This document shows positions 42,941-59,564 of a stretch of 64,000 bases of DNA, piece by piece. Source of the DNA: Ceraceosorus guamensis (lineage: Eukaryota > Basidiomycota > Exobasidiomycetes > Ceraceosorales > Ceraceosoraceae); contig NW_020290021.1 of the NCBI RefSeq assembly GCF_003144195.1, positions 239,838-303,837 of the forward strand, in the 5' to 3' direction. The notes beneath the pieces were generated by a model that was given only the letters and a program-made list of their open reading frames with translations, made no database searches and was not told the origin of the DNA. The first letter of the stretch is position 1. Each line of letters opens with the position of its first letter. The position numbers and the translations under genes were made by a program.

Positions 42941-45900
42941 GGTGAACGCCGATCGAAAGCGGATTGCTCTCCTTTTTCGTTTGGGACCTTTCTCTTTTGG
43001 ACGTGCTCCGCTGGGCTAGCGGGGGCGTACAGCGTGGAATGAAGCTGCTGCTTCCGGATCACGACGGTGGGATGGCGTTAGACGTCGTGTGAAAGGGGTC
43101 GGGCTGACAAGACTCGTGGCGGCAATGATAGTGCTTGGTCACGGTACGGTACGGTTGTGGTGTATAGTAAGCAGGGTCACATTTGAAAGAAGCAGGACGA
43201 AGCGAAAGAGTAGCGACTCGCGACTCTTGACTGGTCGTAACCCTGGCGATGCGTGCCGAAGAAAAGTATCACGTGACTGATCTTGTGTGGTTCAGGCTCG
43301 ACTCATCAGGCTCCAAACTCTCTTTGAAGTGTCCGCCAACTGCTCTGCACCACAAGCCAATCCCTGTCGGACTATGCCAGCATGCACAGCTCGGCATTCA
43401 ACTTCATCAATTGTTGAGGTCGCAAATAGTTCAGATCAGTCATGATCTTGAGTTGCAGCTCCGCATGCTGGGTATCCAGCACGTAGCAGTCGACCGTTAG
43501 GCGAAAGTTGGTGACGAATCAGACAAGCACGAAGATGTAGTCAGAGTTTGGATGTTTATTGGAGAGAGTGAGCAGGTCTCGAGTCTGGAGTCTGGAATGG
43601 ATGTGGATGCTATCTACGAGATCATTGCGCAGCTTGCAATACACGAAAAGCATCGCCTCGAGCAAGGAGTCCAGAGACGAACAAGTCAAGAGTGAGCCCC
43701 GTTGAGTTATGACCCTCCTGCAGAGGGACATGACCGCATAACTATCAACATCTCGCTAGAGACGTTATGACAAACGTTGCGACTCTTTGAATCGTTTCGA
43801 AGAGTTTCCTGGGCTGTGTCCCATTGGAGGAACATGGTGGGATTTTTGTTCAGGTCGTGTCCTACGACTTGTCAACTTGTGCTGCGTTATGCGTTCAAAG
43901 AACCCCCTTCGCTTTGCTGGCAACACCACGTTCCAAAGCCTCGCGCATCCTCTTTGCCATTTTGCCACACTCGCACAGGATGCTCATGACGAAGGGAAAT
44001 ATGCCAGCCCTTTCTGTAGGACACGCTCTTTTACCGCTCCGTGTGCATCTTCGCGGGCTTGGCAAAGAGAAGGGATGCGCTCTCTTCGGGACAGGCTCCT
44101 ATGTGGGCCAGAAACAAAGCCGCAGACACTTCGGAGGTACCCAAAGCCACCAGGACGGGCCCATTCTAATCCGGGTCTCACGAGGCACGTCCACTGCACC
44201 CTCACGGGCCCAGCAGAGCGGCGCATCGATCACCAGAACCGTTCCCGTTGCCGAAGCAACGAGAACTAACGAAGGCCGACCTGCTTCGGAACGGATCCTC
44301 CCGTGTCTTTCTTGACGTGCTCTCGCATGCCGATCGGCACGACAGGTGACACCAGCTAAAGATCGACCCATATTCACGCCGCGACCTCCCCGCTCCCAGC
44401 TCGCACCATGAACCGCGTCAAGAGCCGTGCGCATTACGGCACTGGCCGCTCTCCGATGAGACGAGTGGATAGTGGTGCAAGTCGAGAGCGTGGAGGTCGC
44501 AAACGCGAGAGCCATCATGACCCCGCTTCCATGCCCCATTGTAAACGTCGTGGGCAGTTGTCCGATATGGGGATTGCAAAGGCACAAAAGACAAAGCTCG
44601 AGAGGAGGATCGTGTCCAAATGAGAAAACTGCTTCTTGGAAAGAGATCGCTTGTCCGGGGACTTTCCCTACAGCAAAAGATCGATGGTGAAAAAAAGCTC
44701 TTGATGAGCATCTCCCCATCGCAGCTGCAATGCGGTCCTTTGACCGTCTCTGGACGCTGCTCAGCAGCTACAGAACTGCGAGAATGAACTCGTCGAGCTC
44801 GCCGACTGCCTCACATGGGGACATCGACAGCCCATGCGCAACCTTCCAATGCTTCGTGGACGACGAGAGACGGCGTCGAACATGGGCGAAACACGGCTCG
44901 ATAAACCCTGCCACCTTGGTGTGTGTCAGCGACGAAGTTGCACCAGCGTCCGAGCAACATTTCGACGCCACTCGCCGCCATCCACGAGTAGCACGATAAA
45001 ATTCGATGTCGGCTTCCTTTCTTGCGCGTCCCTTGTTGAGCAGTACGAAAGAGACGCGTAATATGTATCAGAAGCACCAAGGAAAAAGTCTTGGTTGAGA
45101 ACGAAATCCTGTTCGATTGATCTTTGCTGCCTTTCCCTCAGCCGATTGCCCATGTGATGAACAGAAGTCATCGAGCAACGTGATGAATATAGCAGCATGC
45201 GTGTGGTGATTGGATTGCGGAACGAGGTAAAGGATCTTGACCTACCTGTGTGAATCCACTTGCCGATGCGGGTCGAGTGACTGATCGACCAACCCGAATC
45301 TGAAAGGTAAGGACAAAGTACAGCGCATATATTCTACCGCTTACCGCATGTCCGATCAGCGACTGATGGCTGATTTGCTCATCAGGGTGTGCTGGCGTGG
45401 AGGCGTGACCATAGGAGGAGCAATGTAATCAAGGGCTGATGAACAAGGGCATGGGCGGCGTATGGTGGCAGCAGCGGTGTGTGTGCTTTCCTGGCGGTGA
45501 TGCTACGGTCAGGAAGGAACGTGCAGGTCTCGAATTCGTGCATGCTCACACTCAATCAAATGAGAACCGAAAAGATTGTTGTGAATCTTTTCGCGCGTCT
45601 CGACAAAACATGCGCAGCGCGTGCGCGTGCGCAAGCGGCGGCGGCGGCGGTTGATTTCGTCGCGCGTTGCACGCGCGCGCGTGCACAGTCGTCAGCGGCG
45701 AATTTTTCTTTCGCGCACAACCTCGCGTTACAAATTTTTGATTAGGGCGGCAAGGCACAACTGAAAAGACTCACAGATTCGCTTTACAGGTATACATACA
45801 GCCGTGAGTATACGGACCTAACCGACGGTGCATCTTCAAATCACGATACTCGCAACGACTTGAATTCGTGATTTGCGCTTTGCAAATGACCTGCTGCTGC

Positions 45901-48995: not shown

Positions 48996-50805
48996 CTACT
49001 TTCCTCCGGCATGTGCGGATTGCTTGTCCACGCCTCCGAGGCCCTTTCTAGTCTGATTGAGGCCGTGCGCCTTGAGTCGGATGGAAGAAGTAGCGATGAA
49101 TCCACCAGCAGCTTCGACGTCGAAGCCCTCGACGACGTCCATGCTAGCCGCATCGGCGCTGTACAGCGTCTCGCTAGAAGATCTGCCCTCGACGATCGTG
49201 TTGCCCTTGTAAAGCTTCAGCCTCACATCTCCATTCACGTTCTTTTGTGATGCGGGAATGGCAGATCGGACGAATTCGCACTCGGGAGAGTAGTAGAGCC
49301 CGTCGTACAGCTGCTGGCTGAAGCTGCGAGACAAGAACGAGTCGCGAAGCTTGCGGAGCTCCTTGTCCATCACCAGACCTTCCAGAGAGATGTGCGCGGT
49401 GCGCAAGATCGTTCCAGCTGGAGTCTCGTAGCAACCTCGGGACTTGAGACCCAGGAGTCGGTTCTGGAAAAAGGTGAAGAGGAATTTCGAAAGGCGCGCG
49501 TCAGTTCAATCGACATTGCTGTCCCAACCTTCAGATCCTGGTCGCCGCACCTCGACAATGTCCACTCTGCCGATACCGTGTTCCCTAGCCAATAGGTTCA
49601 AAGTGTCAAAGACCTCGACAGAGTCCGTCACTTCCTTTCCGCTGCTTTGAATCTTGACCTTGGTGGGCAGACCCTTGGTGAATGTGATGGTGATTTGCTC
49701 AGGCGTGTCCGGTGCCTTTTCGGGAGACTTGATCAAGCCCCACATGTCCTCAGGAGGCGTGTGGTCCTGTCGCACATGCGTCAAATGACTTGGAGAGCAA
49801 TCAGCGTTGGATGTCACAGCACACTTTCTTTTATCAATCCACACGCACGGGGTCCTCCAAAACACCTGCTTCGTAGGAGCAGTGCATCGCATTCTCATCT
49901 GCGAGGAGGGGCAAAGAAGCTCGTGTAAGCAGGCGCAGGGTTCCTGCAGCGACCCTGATCAGCAGCTCACCAGTAGACCAGGGCTTCGCCTTGGTCTGGG
50001 CGACCGGGATGCCCTTGGACGCGGCATACTCCAAGAGCGCCGAACGTCCAGCAAAGCGGTTGTAGAAAGCTGCGGGCGTAGCAAGGTGAGGGATGGAAGT
50101 CAGTGTATGCTAGTGACTCCGTGCGTCGAAAAGCCTTTCTTGGGCTATACTCACAGGCATCGCGCCAGGGTGCAATGACCTTGATGTCGGGCTTGAGGCC
50201 GTAAAAGGCCAGCTCGAATCTGACCTGATCGTTGCCCTTGCCCGTACAGCCATGAGCCACGTATTGGCATCCCGTCTTGGCAGCGCTCTCGATCATTCCT
50301 CGAGCAATGACTGGACGAGCCAAGGATGTACCGAGGAGGTATACATCCTCGTAGATCGCATTGACCTGCACTGCAGGGTAGATCAGCTCTTCGATAAATT
50401 CGCGGCGCATGTCCTGGAGGGTGGTGGAGGAGGCGAATCGAGCGAGGTAGGAGCACGATTAGCATTCGTTTCGGGATGATCAATGCAAGATTTCCTTGAA
50501 TACCCTCTGTCCCCATCACTCACTTCGAGAATGAAGTCCTTGGCTCCACACTTGATCGCCTTTGTGCGAGCTGCTTCAAAGTCCTCGATCTGTCCGACGT
50601 TGGCCATGAAGGCGACGACATCGTAGCCTTCGTCGATGAGCCAAGCCAGGATGGTAGAGGTATCTGCAAGAAAGAAACACCTGAATGAGCGGGCTGCGCA
50701 CATCGACTTGGCGATTGGCGACTATGGCGCGATGTGAATAGCTAGGAGACATTACTCACCCAGACCGCCAGAGTAGGCTAGTAGTACCTTTCCTTTGGCA
50801 GACAT
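48996..50805 (-). CDS. ARG1: Argininosuccinate synthase
   Basis: Joins citrulline and aspartate with ATP, the penultimate step in arginine biosynthesis, in the cytosol. Seven reverse-strand exons: 50805-50760, 50663-50524, 50413-50155, 50069-49971, 49898-49849, 49766-49551 and 49463-48996, giving 425 residues (yeast Arg1 has 420). The N terminus is [19 protein letters not shown], in which SGGLDTS is the PP-loop and is split by intron 1. Next come [48 protein letters not shown] and PPEDMWGL, and a final exon with [18 protein letters not shown]. The last 40 residues ([15 protein letters not shown]) are longer than usual but similar to fungal orthologues. It is divergently paired with ARG8. Confidence 0.96.
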
Positions 50806-52388: not shown

Positions 52389-54062
52389 ATGTTGGGGCGT
52401 TTTACAAAACAGGCTGGACAGCTTGGAAGGTGGTCGAGAGCGGGTGTCCTTGCGCAGAGGTCCTACGCCTCATCACCGCGCGTGAGTGTGCGCTTTCTGC
52501 CCGCCAGTCAGCAAGTGCAGACCAAGCCTAGCTCACATCAGTTACATACTCGCCCATCTGCGCCGGCTGCGCGTGCGCAGGAACCATGCCAGCGGTACCT
52601 CAAAGTTACACATCCAGACGATCTACCAGAATTCGACTCTCCCAACTCGGTTGGAGCGACGCTGAAGCGCTTCGATGCGTCCACACTAGCAACCTACTCT
52701 CGCCCCTCCGTCTTGCTCACTCGTGGAAAAGGTCTCGATTTGTGGGCAGCATCGGATGATGCCGGCTCCCCCTCGGGAAGAGGAGAGCGGCATTATCTGG
52801 ACTTTAGTTCCGGCATCGCTGTCAACTCTTTGGGCCATGCTGATGCGCAAATCGCCGAGGTTGCGGCCGATCAAGCTAATAGATTGGTCCACAGCAGCAA
52901 CTTGTATCACAACGAGTGGAGTGGGGAGCTGGCGGATAGGATGGTCAAGCTGACGAGAGAACATGGCGGACTGGGCATCGAGCGAGGAAGCTCAGAGGGA
53001 GACTTGAAGGTGTTTTTGGCCAATAGCGGTACGGAGGCGAACGAAGGTGAGTTCTCGCGGGCCGCTATCCAACACTTCAACCGGACTTTGTTATCCTCTC
53101 GGCGCTGCTTAACGCTGCTCCACTTGTCATATGTAGCCGCCCTCAAATTCGCTCGAAAGCATGGCATGTCGCATTCTGGCAAGCCGGCAACCAAATCCGG
53201 TCTAGTCAGCTTCAACAACGCCTTTCATGGTCGCACGATGGGAGCGCTAGCCATGACGCCCAACCCAAAATACCAAGCACCATTCGCCCCCCTTCTCGGG
53301 GATGTAAAGACGGGTCACTACAACTCCTTTGAAGGTCTTCACGACCTCATCGACGATAAGACGGCAGGCGTCATTGTGGAGCCGGTGCAAGGCGAGGGAG
53401 GCATCTTTCCCGCCAAGCTCGAGTGGCTCCAAGCTCTCAGAAAGAGATGCGACGAAGTCAAGGCTCTGCTCATCTTTGACGAGATCCAATGCGGTCTTTG
53501 GAGATCCGGATCCTTGTGGTGTCACTCCAACTTTCCGACCAACGCTCATCCGGATCTCATCACCATGGCCAAACCTCTTGCAAACGGCTTCCCCATCGGA
53601 GCGGTTCTGATGCGCAAGTCGGTTGCCGATAGCATCACAGTTGGGGATCACGGAACAACATTTGGAGGGGGTCCTCTGACCAGCAGGATAGCCCATCACG
53701 TTCTGGGGCGGCTGTCTGACCCTGCCCTGGTCAAGAGTGCCAAAGCAGCTTCGGACAAGCTCAAGGCGCGATTGACTGAATTGCGAGACCTCTTTCCTGA
53801 ATTGATCCGACACGAAGAAGGCGCGTATGAGTCACCCAGAGGCAAAGGCTTGTTGATCGGTCTGAGCACAAAGGACCCTTCTCATGCTGGCAAGATCGTC
53901 AAGCTGGCCAGAGAGCGCGGCTTGATTGTGCTCAGCGCTGGATCGGATGCCGTTAGGATAGTCCCAAGCTTGACGGTATCGCTGGAGCAGATCGATACTG
54001 CTGCAGACATACTGGAGAGCTGCTTCTCCGTCTTGGCTCGAGAGACTAGACATACCGCCTAG
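52389..54062 (+). CDS. ARG8: Acetylornithine aminotransferase, mitochondrial
   Basis: PLP enzyme that makes N-acetylornithine from N-acetylglutamate semialdehyde in the mitochondrial matrix. Two exons, 52389-53046 and 53137-54062, for 527 residues including a presequence rich in Arg, Ser and Gln (MLGRFTKQAGQLGRWSRAG). Seen in order: DFSSGIAVNSLGHADAQIAE, FLANSGTEANE/AALKFARK across the splice, NAFHGRTMGALAMT, VEPVQGEGGIFPA, LLIFDEIQCGLWRSG, and TMAKPLANGFPIGAVL with the PLP Lys. The 90-nt intron is a multiple of three and has no in-frame stop, so the unspliced message is also open. The presequence and the linker to the conserved part are longer than in yeast (about 423 residues). Confidence 0.95.
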   Translation: MLGRFTKQAGQLGRWSRAGVLAQRSYASSPRVSVRFLPASQQVQTKPSSHQLHTRPSAPAARAQEPCQRYLKVTHPDDLPEFDSPNSVGATLKRFDASTLATYSRPSVLLTRGKGLDLWAASDDAGSPSGRGERHYLDFSSGIAVNSLGHADAQIAEVAADQANRLVHSSNLYHNEWSGELADRMVKLTREHGGLGIERGSSEGDLKVFLANSGTEANEGEFSRAAIQHFNRTLLSSRRCLTLLHLSYVAALKFARKHGMSHSGKPATKSGLVSFNNAFHGRTMGALAMTPNPKYQAPFAPLLGDVKTGHYNSFEGLHDLIDDKTAGVIVEPVQGEGGIFPAKLEWLQALRKRCDEVKALLIFDEIQCGLWRSGSLWCHSNFPTNAHPDLITMAKPLANGFPIGAVLMRKSVADSITVGDHGTTFGGGPLTSRIAHHVLGRLSDPALVKSAKAASDKLKARLTELRDLFPELIRHEEGAYESPRGKGLLIGLSTKDPSHAGKIVKLARERGLIVLSAGSDAVRIVPSLTVSLEQIDTAADILESCFSVLARETRHTA

Positions 54063-54714: not shown

Positions 54715-56379
54715 ATGCACGCTACGACACTTCGCCAGTCGGCCTCTTACATTGTCGCTGCCAAGCGAACGCCGTTCGGCGCTTTCGGCGGCAAGCTTTC
54801 GTCGCTCACAGCCGCACAATTGGGAGGACACGCTTCCAAAGCAGCCTTGAGCCAATTGCCTGAAGGCACACCGATCGACGCTACCATTTTCGGCAATGTG
54901 CACGCTTCCGACAACTCTGCTGCTTACTTGGCCAGACACGTTGGTCACCATGCTGGTCTGCCAGTCACTGTGCCCGCACTCACGGTCAACCGTCTTTGCG
55001 GATCTGGCTTCCAGAGCATCATCAATGCCGTGCAGGAAGTCAACAGCGGTGACTCCAACATCGTCCTCACGGGTGGAACGGAGAGTATGAGTCTCGCTCC
55101 TTACACACTCCACGGCGTTCGATTTGGAGGCGGCAAGTACGGAGTGGACCTCAAGCTCGTCGACTCTCTTGCTGCTGCTCTTACCGACATGGTTCCTCAG
55201 CCTACTCCCATGGGTGAGTCGGAGTGTGACTGTGTGCCGGGAAGGTCGTTTCATCGGAAGCTTTACAGGCAGTGCTTCATCCACAGACGGGCCCGATATC
55301 AAGCTTGTTCCGCACTGCATGGACTGACACGCCCATTCCGCTGATCCTACCGTTTGCCCATCCCTTCGCACGTCTTCTCTACTTCGACTGATACCGTAAA
55401 TTAGGGTGAGTCAAGCGCGCGCCTCCAATTCTGGCTGCTTTTTGGAGCAGCCTCGTTGACCTGTACGCGCCTCCCTCAGCATCACCGCCGAGAATCTTGC
55501 AAACAAGTACGGCATTACGCGCGAGCAGTGCGACCAATTCGCTCTGCAGAGTCAGCAACGCTGGCAAGCCGCTCAAGAGGCCGGCGCATTCAAGGACGAG
55601 ATTGTTCCTGTGGAGGTCAAGGTCAAGCGTGTGAGTGCAACTAGGCGTCTTCTTCGTCTTTGTCAGCGAGGCACCTCAGCTGAGATCGATGCGTTTTCCT
55701 TTCTACCGCACAAAGGCGACAGAGACATTCAGCGTGGATGAGCACCCCAGGGGAAAGACGACGATCGAGTCTCTGGCCAAGCTCCCGTCCGTCTTCAAGA
55801 AGGACGGAACAGTGACGGCGGGCAACGCGAGCGGTATCTGCGATGGAGCCGCCGCCAATGTTGTCGCTAGCGAGGAGGCCATCAAGCAACACAACCTCAA
55901 GCCTTTGGCCAGAATTGTCTCTTACGGTGTCACCGCTTGCGAGCCTAGCATCATGGGTGTGAGTACAGGGGCACAGCAAACGAGGTGCCATGCGCACTGC
56001 GCGATGAAGTCTGCGCCATTTTGACGCTGCCTCGTCCCCCCTCGTGGTGCCTCATTGTTTCTAGATCGGGCCTGTCGAGGCTATCAAGATTGCCCTTCAA
56101 CGCGGCGGCAAGACCCTCGGAGAGATTGATGGACCAATCGAGGTCAACGAAGCCTTTGCGGCTCAATTCCTGTCTGTGCAAAAGGAGCTCGAGCTTCCCA
56201 ATGAGCAGACCAATCAATTCGGAGGTGCCATCGCCCTCGGACATCCGCTTGGAGCTTCTGGAGCTAGAATCATCAACAACTTGGTGTACAATGGAAAGAG
56301 GCTCAACAAAAAGTACGCACTTGGTGCGGCTTGCATTGGCGGTGGTCAAGGTATCGCCATCCTCCTCGAGATCTTATGA
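54715..56379 (+). CDS. ACAA2: 3-ketoacyl-CoA thiolase (mitochondrial ACAA2 type)
   Basis: Catalyses thiolytic cleavage in fatty-acid beta-oxidation. Exons 54715-55213, 55405 (one base), 55480-55630, 55716-55958 and 56065-56379 give 402 residues. The conserved order is SYIVAAKRTPFGAFGGKL, NRLCGSGFQS (nucleophile Cys95), GGTESMSLAPY, MGITAENLANKYGI, KDGTVTAGNASGICDGAAA, PSIMGIGPV, VEVNEAFAAQFL, ALGHPLGASGARI (His358) and ACIGGGQGIA (Cys388). There is no SKL-type peroxisomal C terminus and no PTS2 in the first residues, which supports a mitochondrial form. The join between PTPM and ITAEN needs one G from 55405; without it the sum is not divisible by three and the frame is lost. Confidence 0.93.
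55405..55405 (+). other. Predicted one-nucleotide exon of the thiolase gene
   Basis: Exon 1 ends ATG-G at 55213 and the next conserved exon starts C-ATC-ACC at 55480, so the Gly codon GGC needs one more G. The only place that supplies it with good splice signals is position 55405, where ttag/G/gtgagt has a perfect acceptor to its left and a perfect donor to its right. A branch-like ctgat lies 15 bases upstream. Introns would be 55214-55404 (191 nt) and 55406-55479 (74 nt). Confidence 0.65.
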
Positions 56380-58169: not shown

Positions 58170-59564
58170 ATGGATGACGTGATCCGCTTCCTCAAGGCCC
58201 ACAAGGTAAGACAGCGATCGATGGGCGGAAGAGGGAACGGGTGGGTTCACATGCGAAGTCATCAATCGCTGAGCCGTGTTTGATTATGCCCCGCGTCATG
58301 ACTGCTTCCCCATCGCAGGGCCAGGTGAGTAAGACGTAACATCTCTTTGTGAAGCTTGTGCCTGGCTCAACGCCATGCGTCGCTCTTCTCTTCGGCGGGG
58401 CAGATCATCAAGTACGGCAAAAAGTTGTTCAAGGCCTTCTCGAACAAGAACAAGCAGAATCAGCAGCAAGGCGGGCAGGGTTACGCCCCGCAACAACAGC
58501 CATGGCAACAGCAACAACAAGGCGGCTATGGAGGAGGATATGCGCAAGCACCGCAGCAACAGCAGCAGCCATGGTCTCCGCCTCAGCAGACTGGCCATGG
58601 TATGCCCCAGAGTCATCCTCCGGGTGTCAAGCCTCATCATGGAAAGTACGATGATAACCAAGTCAGTCCGAGGGCGTTTGCGTCATCGTATGTGCGCCTC
58701 TGATACCTGCCAACGTGCTCACCACTCATGCATCTCTCCGTATCAGGTGAACCAAGCTAACGAGCGCTACCAGCAACTGCGTAATCAGGCTCGGTCGGAA
58801 GGTGATCAGATGGCAAAGTGCTTTGACGCTTCTCACAAGGCCTACTCATCTGGCGATGGAGCGCGCGCAAAGGAGCTGAGCAATGAAGGCAAGATGCACA
58901 AGGAACGTATGGAGCAGCTGAACCAAGAAGCTTCCGACTGGATTTACAAGGCTAATAATGAGGACAGCGGACCCGATGAGGTTGGTGAGTGGTGTCGGCT
59001 GCGAAAACCGACATTGCTCTTGCAGAAGCTTTCCGTAGCTCGGCTCTGACGTATCAAGCGCATACATTGCTGTCACAAGACTTGCATGGACTGTACACTG
59101 CAGAGGCCATCAAGAGGACAGAGCAGGCGGTGCAACAAGCCCAGCAGGCTGGCAAGCCCGAGCTGCGCATCATCGTTGGCAAAGGTCTTCACTCAAAGGA
59201 TCACGTAGCCCACATCAAGGTACGTGCTTGACAACACTTGCAAATGTGAAGCATGACTGAGCAGAGTGTCCTGCACGGTTGTCCTTCTCGCGCAGCCCGC
59301 CGTCGAAAAGCTCATGCGAGAGTGAGTCGATCAGGTAGGTTGAAGCTGGAGCAGAGGCTGACATCTGCATACTGTTCCCGCCGCAGCTACAACCTTGCAG
59401 CCCACCTCGACCCCCACAATTCTGGTGTGCTTGTCGTGAATCTTCAAGGCCAGGGATCTCGCGACGTTGGCAGCTTCACAAGAGATCTCGCAAAGCATGC
59501 CAGCGGAGACGAGGAGCAAGTGAGTGCAGCGGATATGATGAGACTGGCGGCACAGGCAAGTTGA
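58170..59564 (+). CDS. DUF1771 and Smr domain protein
   Basis: Seven exons: 58170-58205, 58319-58324 (6 nt), 58404-58661, 58747-58984, 59080-59219, 59296-59321 and 59387-59564, for 293 residues. The N terminus MDDVIRFLKAHKGQ, then IIKYGKKLFKAFSNK, is a small helical segment; next a Gln/Gly/Pro-rich low-complexity part; then DUF1771 (residues 101-165; YQQLRNQARSEGDQMAKC with a helix pair to EQLNQEASDWIYKANNE) and an Smr domain (VDLHGLYTAEAIKRTEQAV, LRIIVGKGLHSKDHVAHIKP, HLDPHNSGVLVVNLQG). The Smr domain (VDLHG and GxGxHS) is nuclease-like in related proteins such as N4BP2; activity is not proven here. The tail (SAADMMRLAAQAS) is acidic then hydrophobic. Tiny exons 2 and 6 are kept because their junctions preserve frame and consensus. 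Confidence 0.85.
58319..58324 (+). other. Six-nucleotide microexon of the Smr gene
   Basis: GGCCAG lies between a good acceptor (atcgcag) and donor (gtgagt), 113 and 79 nt from the flanking exons. It adds Gly-Gln to make HKGQIIKYGKK. Skipping it also keeps the frame, so both forms may exist. Confidence 0.6.

Follow-up and report, generated by a model that had tools for sequence, protein, structure and literature searches.

Exons of a single nucleotide have been described in plants, fungi and one animal mitochondrial gene, and these reports provide the closest counterparts to the locus studied here. For Arabidopsis APC11, a single-nucleotide exon was shown by cDNA and reporter constructs (PMC4674806), and microexons of 1 nt in APC11 and VPS55 are conserved over many land plants, with support from RNA-seq and RT-PCR (PMC8831610). 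In Fusarium, a single-nucleotide exon is likewise reported for CYP621A, where it is present in 20 orthologs and is confirmed by RNA reads of F. solani and F. acuminatum (PMC12940212). The first-pass annotation of the present locus had treated such exons as nearly unique to one Arabidopsis gene, a view that VPS55 (PMC8831610) and the Fusarium orthologs (PMC12940212) have made outdated. Outside nuclear genes, the mitochondrial cox1 of placozoans carries a 1-bp exon, for which the proposed origin is an intron insertion that isolated a single base (PMC5436844).

To this group we add a candidate from the basidiomycete Ceraceosorus guamensis, found in a stretch of 64,000 nucleotides (hereafter the window). 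One gene in it, predicted to encode a 3-ketoacyl-CoA/acetyl-CoA thiolase, has a reading frame that closes if a lone G at position 55405 is retained between two introns. Its predicted structure, all on the forward strand, is as follows:

54715-56379, forward strand: thiolase gene, five predicted exons
54715-55213, forward strand: exon 1, 499 nt, ending in ATG-G, where the G is the first base of a Gly codon; evidence from translation, exon sum and Pfam Thiolase_N (E 3.3e-81)
55214-55404, forward strand: predicted intron 1a, 191 nt, GTGAGT...CTGAT...TTAG
55405-55405, forward strand: lone G predicted as a single-nucleotide exon, second position of the Gly codon of MGITAEN
55406-55479, forward strand: predicted intron 1b, 74 nt, GTGAGT...TTGAC...CTCAG
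55480-55630, forward strand: exon 3, 151 nt, opening with the third position of the Gly codon and continuing into ITAEN
55631-55715, forward strand: intron, 85 nt, GTGAGT...AAAG
55716-55958, forward strand: exon 4, the penultimate one, 243 nt, site of the premature stop if 55405 is omitted
55959-56064, forward strand: intron, 106 nt, GTGAGT...CTAG
56065-56379, forward strand: exon 5, 315 nt, through the stop codon TGA; Thiolase_C, E 1.6e-40

The sequence bears out the structural details on which the exon had first been proposed. Exon 1 ends in ATG-G at 55213 and is followed by the donor GTGAGT at 55214-55219, a TTAG ends at 55404, a second GTGAGT occupies 55406-55411, and C-ATC-ACC begins at 55480, directly after CCTCCCTCAG. 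Exactly one base therefore lies between the AG of a 3' splice site and the GT of a 5' splice site (TTAG-G-GTGAGT, 55401-55411). On recomputation, the claimed sum of 499+1+151+243+315 nt does give 1209 nt, which translates to 402 residues plus a stop, and leaving out 55405 reduces it to 1208 nt with loss of the reading frame, as had been argued. The frame then shifts after PTPM and reaches a stop at nt 748, inside exon 4 (nt 651-893), so that the product ends after 249 residues and Thiolase_C is lost. The CTGAT put forward as a branch point upstream of 55404 is present, its A lying 13 nt before the end of the intron, and the proposal that longer exons ending at 55405 would run into a stop agrees with an in-frame TGA at 55389-55391; in our enumeration of splice chains, all inner exons ending at 55405 were 1 nt long.

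Among the described cases, Fusarium CYP621A (PMC12940212) is a close match: both are fungal nuclear genes in which an exon ending in phase 1 faces one starting in phase 2 with one base missing, both share the core AGGGT, the exon supplies in both the second position of a conserved Gly codon, and the combined interval exceeds the usual intron length. The Fusarium gene differs in that it encodes a cytochrome P450 and is known from 20 orthologs with RNA reads in two species, whereas the thiolase gene is known from one genomic sequence. Because these Fusarium exons have been reported, the thiolase exon is not the first fungal case. Arabidopsis APC11 resembles it in having a one-base exon flanked by AG and GT and needed for the frame, which in APC11 is constitutive; there, however, the base is an A and the gene is a plant gene (PMC4674806). 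VPS55 also has a one-base exon, followed by a conserved GTRAGT donor, but the APC11 and VPS55 microexons are in plants and are supported by RNA (PMC8831610). In placozoan cox1 a single base likewise restores a conserved codon, although the introns there are mitochondrial group I rather than spliceosomal (PMC5436844). Fungal stwintrons (PMC5639578) share with our locus two adjoining introns that may be mistaken for one and are spliced consecutively; in the [D1,2] type, the outer donor is interrupted after its first base by the internal intron, whereas both predicted thiolase introns are complete and the base between them is retained. We rejected the [D1,2] stwintron as an assignment, since it needs a T after the internal acceptor and here TTAG is followed by G and then by a complete GTGAGT. 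A search of the literature on one-nucleotide exons and basidiomycete/ustilag microexons, judged by titles and the openings of abstracts, named no basidiomycete nuclear single-nucleotide exon; we make no claim of priority within a lineage. The thiolase exon is probably a further case of a known, very rare exon type.

The identity of the protein and its conservation at the junction were assessed from the spliced translation. The protein matches PF00108 (Thiolase_N) over positions 2-260 of 260 (E 3.3e-81, 272.9 bits) and PF02803 (Thiolase_C) over positions 1-122 of 123 (E 1.6e-40), and its top PDB match is the mitochondrial 3-ketoacyl-CoA thiolase 4c2j_A (residues 11-400, E 3.2e-142). For the junction we compared it with the best 80 of 441 bacterial relatives found in a set of bacterial and archaeal genome contigs. 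In all 80 the seven-residue segment from Met to Asn is free of gaps; Met is followed by Gly in 66 of them and by Ile in the other 14, and 50 have the exact MGITAEN. The segment was also gap-free in the five PDB alignments inspected, out of 92 PDB matches, with 4c2j_A carrying Ala where the thiolase gene has the junction Gly. Small indels near the junction do occur, since the thiolase protein carries one residue more than the inspected PDB chains at a place within exon 1, 3-5 residues before the Met. A scan of viral contigs for fungal relatives gave four pattern matches and no relative among them.

We then enumerated the ways in which the interval could be spliced, using splice and codon models trained on the other predicted genes of the window with the thiolase gene left out (36 introns). 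The first listing kept exon 3 whole and the frame intact into ATC-ACC, and allowed up to three introns of 40-450 nt; acceptors were AG, and donors, either GT or GC, had to lie at or beyond 55150 with a score of -2 or more. It returned ten in-frame chains, with the one-base exon at the top (-1.10) and as runner-up (-4.83) a chain with the weak donor GTGTGA at 55224, which adds three residues to give MGESDITAEN. A wider listing over 55048-55630, limited to two introns and permitting acceptors within exon 3, yielded 2223 chains, and the one-base exon was again first (10.09), ahead of the GTGTGA-donor chain (6.36) and of single introns that would cost the conserved region about 30 residues (5.54 and 5.38). 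When every single intron starting at 55191-55260 and ending at 55400-55499 was considered, the exact TPMGITAEN arose only with GT-CA, TG-AG or GA-GC ends. Within the range searched, no canonical single intron yields the conserved protein; such introns come only with extra residues or with conserved residues lost. A one-base exon that completes the Gly codon of MGITAEN is thus supported as the best-scoring of the enumerated chains and is consistent with the family alignment.

The splice signals around 55405 are of unequal quality. GTGAGT is the commonest donor in the window, occurring in 32 of the 51 predicted introns, 1a and 1b included. Within predicted gene spans, read in the sense direction, it is used as a donor 32 times out of 33, a figure that is partly circular because the gene finder scores donors. 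Donors are unusually uniform across the window (1-64000), with GTAAGT in only 2 of the 51 introns predicted by this donor-scoring finder. Splice scores are themselves partly circular, the 36 training introns being predictions of the same gene finder; on this scale 24 of the 36 training donors score equal to or lower than the donor of intron 1a, while its acceptor at 55404 (TGATACCGTAAATTAG), at -0.62, falls short of every one of the 36 training acceptors (1.98-6.60). The sequence upstream of this acceptor is A-rich instead of pyrimidine-rich, and at 13 nt the branch-like A of CTGAT sits close to the shortest distance among the listed candidates (12-45). For intron 1b, 27 of the 36 training donors and 6 of the 36 training acceptors score equal or lower, and a branch-like TTGAC has its A 20 nt before the intron ends. 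The 51 predicted introns, with 1a and 1b among them, measure 60-193 nt, so a single intron of 266 nt would exceed them all.

The short motif was judged against chance at several levels of stringency. AGGGTGAGT occurs once in the 64-kb window, both strands counted. The looser YAGNGTGAGT is present twice against 1.04 expected, at least two copies being reached in 30 of 100 shuffles, and YAGNGTRAGT is present twice against 1.45 expected. As these frequencies are about those of chance, the motif alone proves nothing, and the weight rests on its place inside an intron that breaks the frame. When the interior of the intron was dinucleotide-shuffled 20,000 times, a 1-nt exon scoring as well appeared in 0.9% of the shuffles for any base and in 0.29% for G, and among 25,331 overlapping real 266-nt frames of the window it appeared in 146 (0.58%), or 36 (0.14%) for G only. 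Chance alone thus yields an equal or better site in 0.14-0.9% of comparable stretches.

Gene-finder predictions were compared across ten settings, in which the intron penalty of -12, derived from the expected intron spacing, was also varied. Eight of the ten keep 55405, and six of those reproduce the exact gene; the base is kept in four of five settings with untrained splice models and in four of five with the thiolase gene left out. The heaviest penalty (-16, two settings) loses everything before 55689, so that 55405 disappears along with the whole 5' half, and the lightest (-8, two settings) keeps 55405 with altered gene ends.

Elsewhere in the window, a second small exon may be present at 58319-58324 on the forward strand, where a candidate 6-nt exon, GGCCAG, lies between CATCGCAG and GTGAGT and is flanked by introns of 113 and 79 nt. 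It belongs to a predicted DUF1771/Smr-domain gene at 58170-59564 and is called as a separate exon in four of six finder settings, whereas in the other two it closes a longer first exon; the evidence is weaker because GGCCAG is frame-neutral. The window further includes, on the reverse strand at 43680-44749, an RNase MRP RNA (Rfam RF00030, 59.6 bits, E 3.9e-14) with large insertions, as the full 266-position model is spread over 1070 nt. Pfam assignments of predicted genes place an argininosuccinate synthase (48996-50805, reverse strand) next to a class-III aminotransferase (52389-54062, forward strand), possibly two arginine-pathway genes side by side. ARAGORN found no tRNA genes in window positions 1-64000.

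Our preferred reading, predicted from the DNA and in our view very likely, is that the spliceosome constitutively includes G55405 as an exon of one nucleotide, bounded by an intron of 191 nt and another of 74 nt, each a complete and ordinary GT-AG intron. The leading alternative is an ordinary 266-nt intron combined with the loss of one base near one of its ends through an assembly or sequencing error, the internal AG-G-GTGAGT then being fortuitous. As a class, single-base errors are far commoner than single-base exons, and the weak acceptor at 55404 and the near-chance frequency of YAGNGTGAGT in the window would both fit. Against it stand the rarity by chance of a site this good, the length of 266 nt beyond that of all 51 predicted introns, and the remainder of the gene, which reads through unbroken. 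We therefore hold this error unlikely, and a variant in which the strain carries a real frameshift less likely still; the grades given to the one-base exon and to the one-base error are judgements from the figures rather than computed posteriors. A canonical solution with one intron is provided by the 256-nt interval from the weak donor GTGTGA at 55224 to 55479, which is GT-AG, stays in frame and was the second of the enumerated chains. It nevertheless scores 3.7 log units below the one-base exon, uses a donor found in none of the 51 predicted introns while leaving a consensus GTGAGT ten bases upstream unused, and inserts its three residues (MGESDITAEN) where none of the best 80 of 441 bacterial relatives has a gap, with a fall in the Thiolase_N score of 9.4 bits (from 272.9 to 263.5); we regard it as very improbable.

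A single non-canonical intron (TG-AG from 55215, GT-CA ending at 55478 or GA-GC from 55216) would give the correct protein directly, and in the range searched these three junctions alone produce TPMGITAEN with one intron. To our knowledge none of them is a common spliceosomal class, their length is above the intron range of the window, and AG-G-GTGAGT would be left unexplained, which makes this solution highly improbable. Least credible of all, in our judgement, is that the base is skipped and that a programmed frameshift rescues translation or that the frame-broken transcript is the main product. A junction one base short is what a frameshift requires, and we found no further support for it; the product would end after 249 residues and lack Thiolase_C, and a simpler splice solution is at hand. 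A regulated form of the one-base exon is also conceivable, though quite improbable, in which inclusion would give the thiolase and skipping would place a premature stop in the next-to-last exon and cause the transcript to be degraded, so that recognition of the weak TTAG acceptor would tune fatty-acid breakdown. If that were true, the AG-G-GT core, which in Fusarium CYP621A also falls in a Gly codon, would point to recurrent single-base isolation in fungi.

For a constitutive one-base exon, intron definition would provide a straightforward mechanism: the spliceosome would take out each intron separately and in either order, and the exon would never be recognised as a unit. If the 191-nt intron were removed first, the joined exon end ATGGG would adjoin the second GTGAGT; if the 74-nt intron were removed first, the TTAG end of the first intron would adjoin GCATC. 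Both orders would join ATG-G, G and C-ATC and so restore the Gly codon and the thiolase reading frame. That the RNA is spliced in this way, with constitutive inclusion of the base, is what we infer, together with the order of splicing and the origin of the exon.

On the simplest account of that origin, a second intron would have been gained one base inside an exon already bordered by an intron, much as the insertion proposed for placozoan cox1. For Fusarium, Nelson and Syed propose instead that a base was lost near the boundary and rescued by a cryptic AGGGT (PMC12940212). Nothing in the present data favours intron gain over base loss or the reverse. Duplication of a donor was considered, as GGGTGAGTC is found at both donors, and was rejected: C follows 5 of the 32 GTGAGT donors, these two included. 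BLAST searches of introns 1a and 1b against the other predicted introns and the window gave only matches of 9-11 nt with E 0.14 or worse, and the two introns gave no match to each other. On these figures, we claim neither a duplication nor an introner.

If the exon is real, annotation pipelines may call genes of this kind frameshifted or add spurious residues to them, and screening fungal genomes for phase-incompatible junctions with AG-N-GT in long introns could reveal how frequent they are. It would also give fungi an independent example of an exon at its minimum size, in an enzyme of core metabolism whose gene family differs from the published one, and it would support the view that an intron-defining spliceosome requires no exon body.
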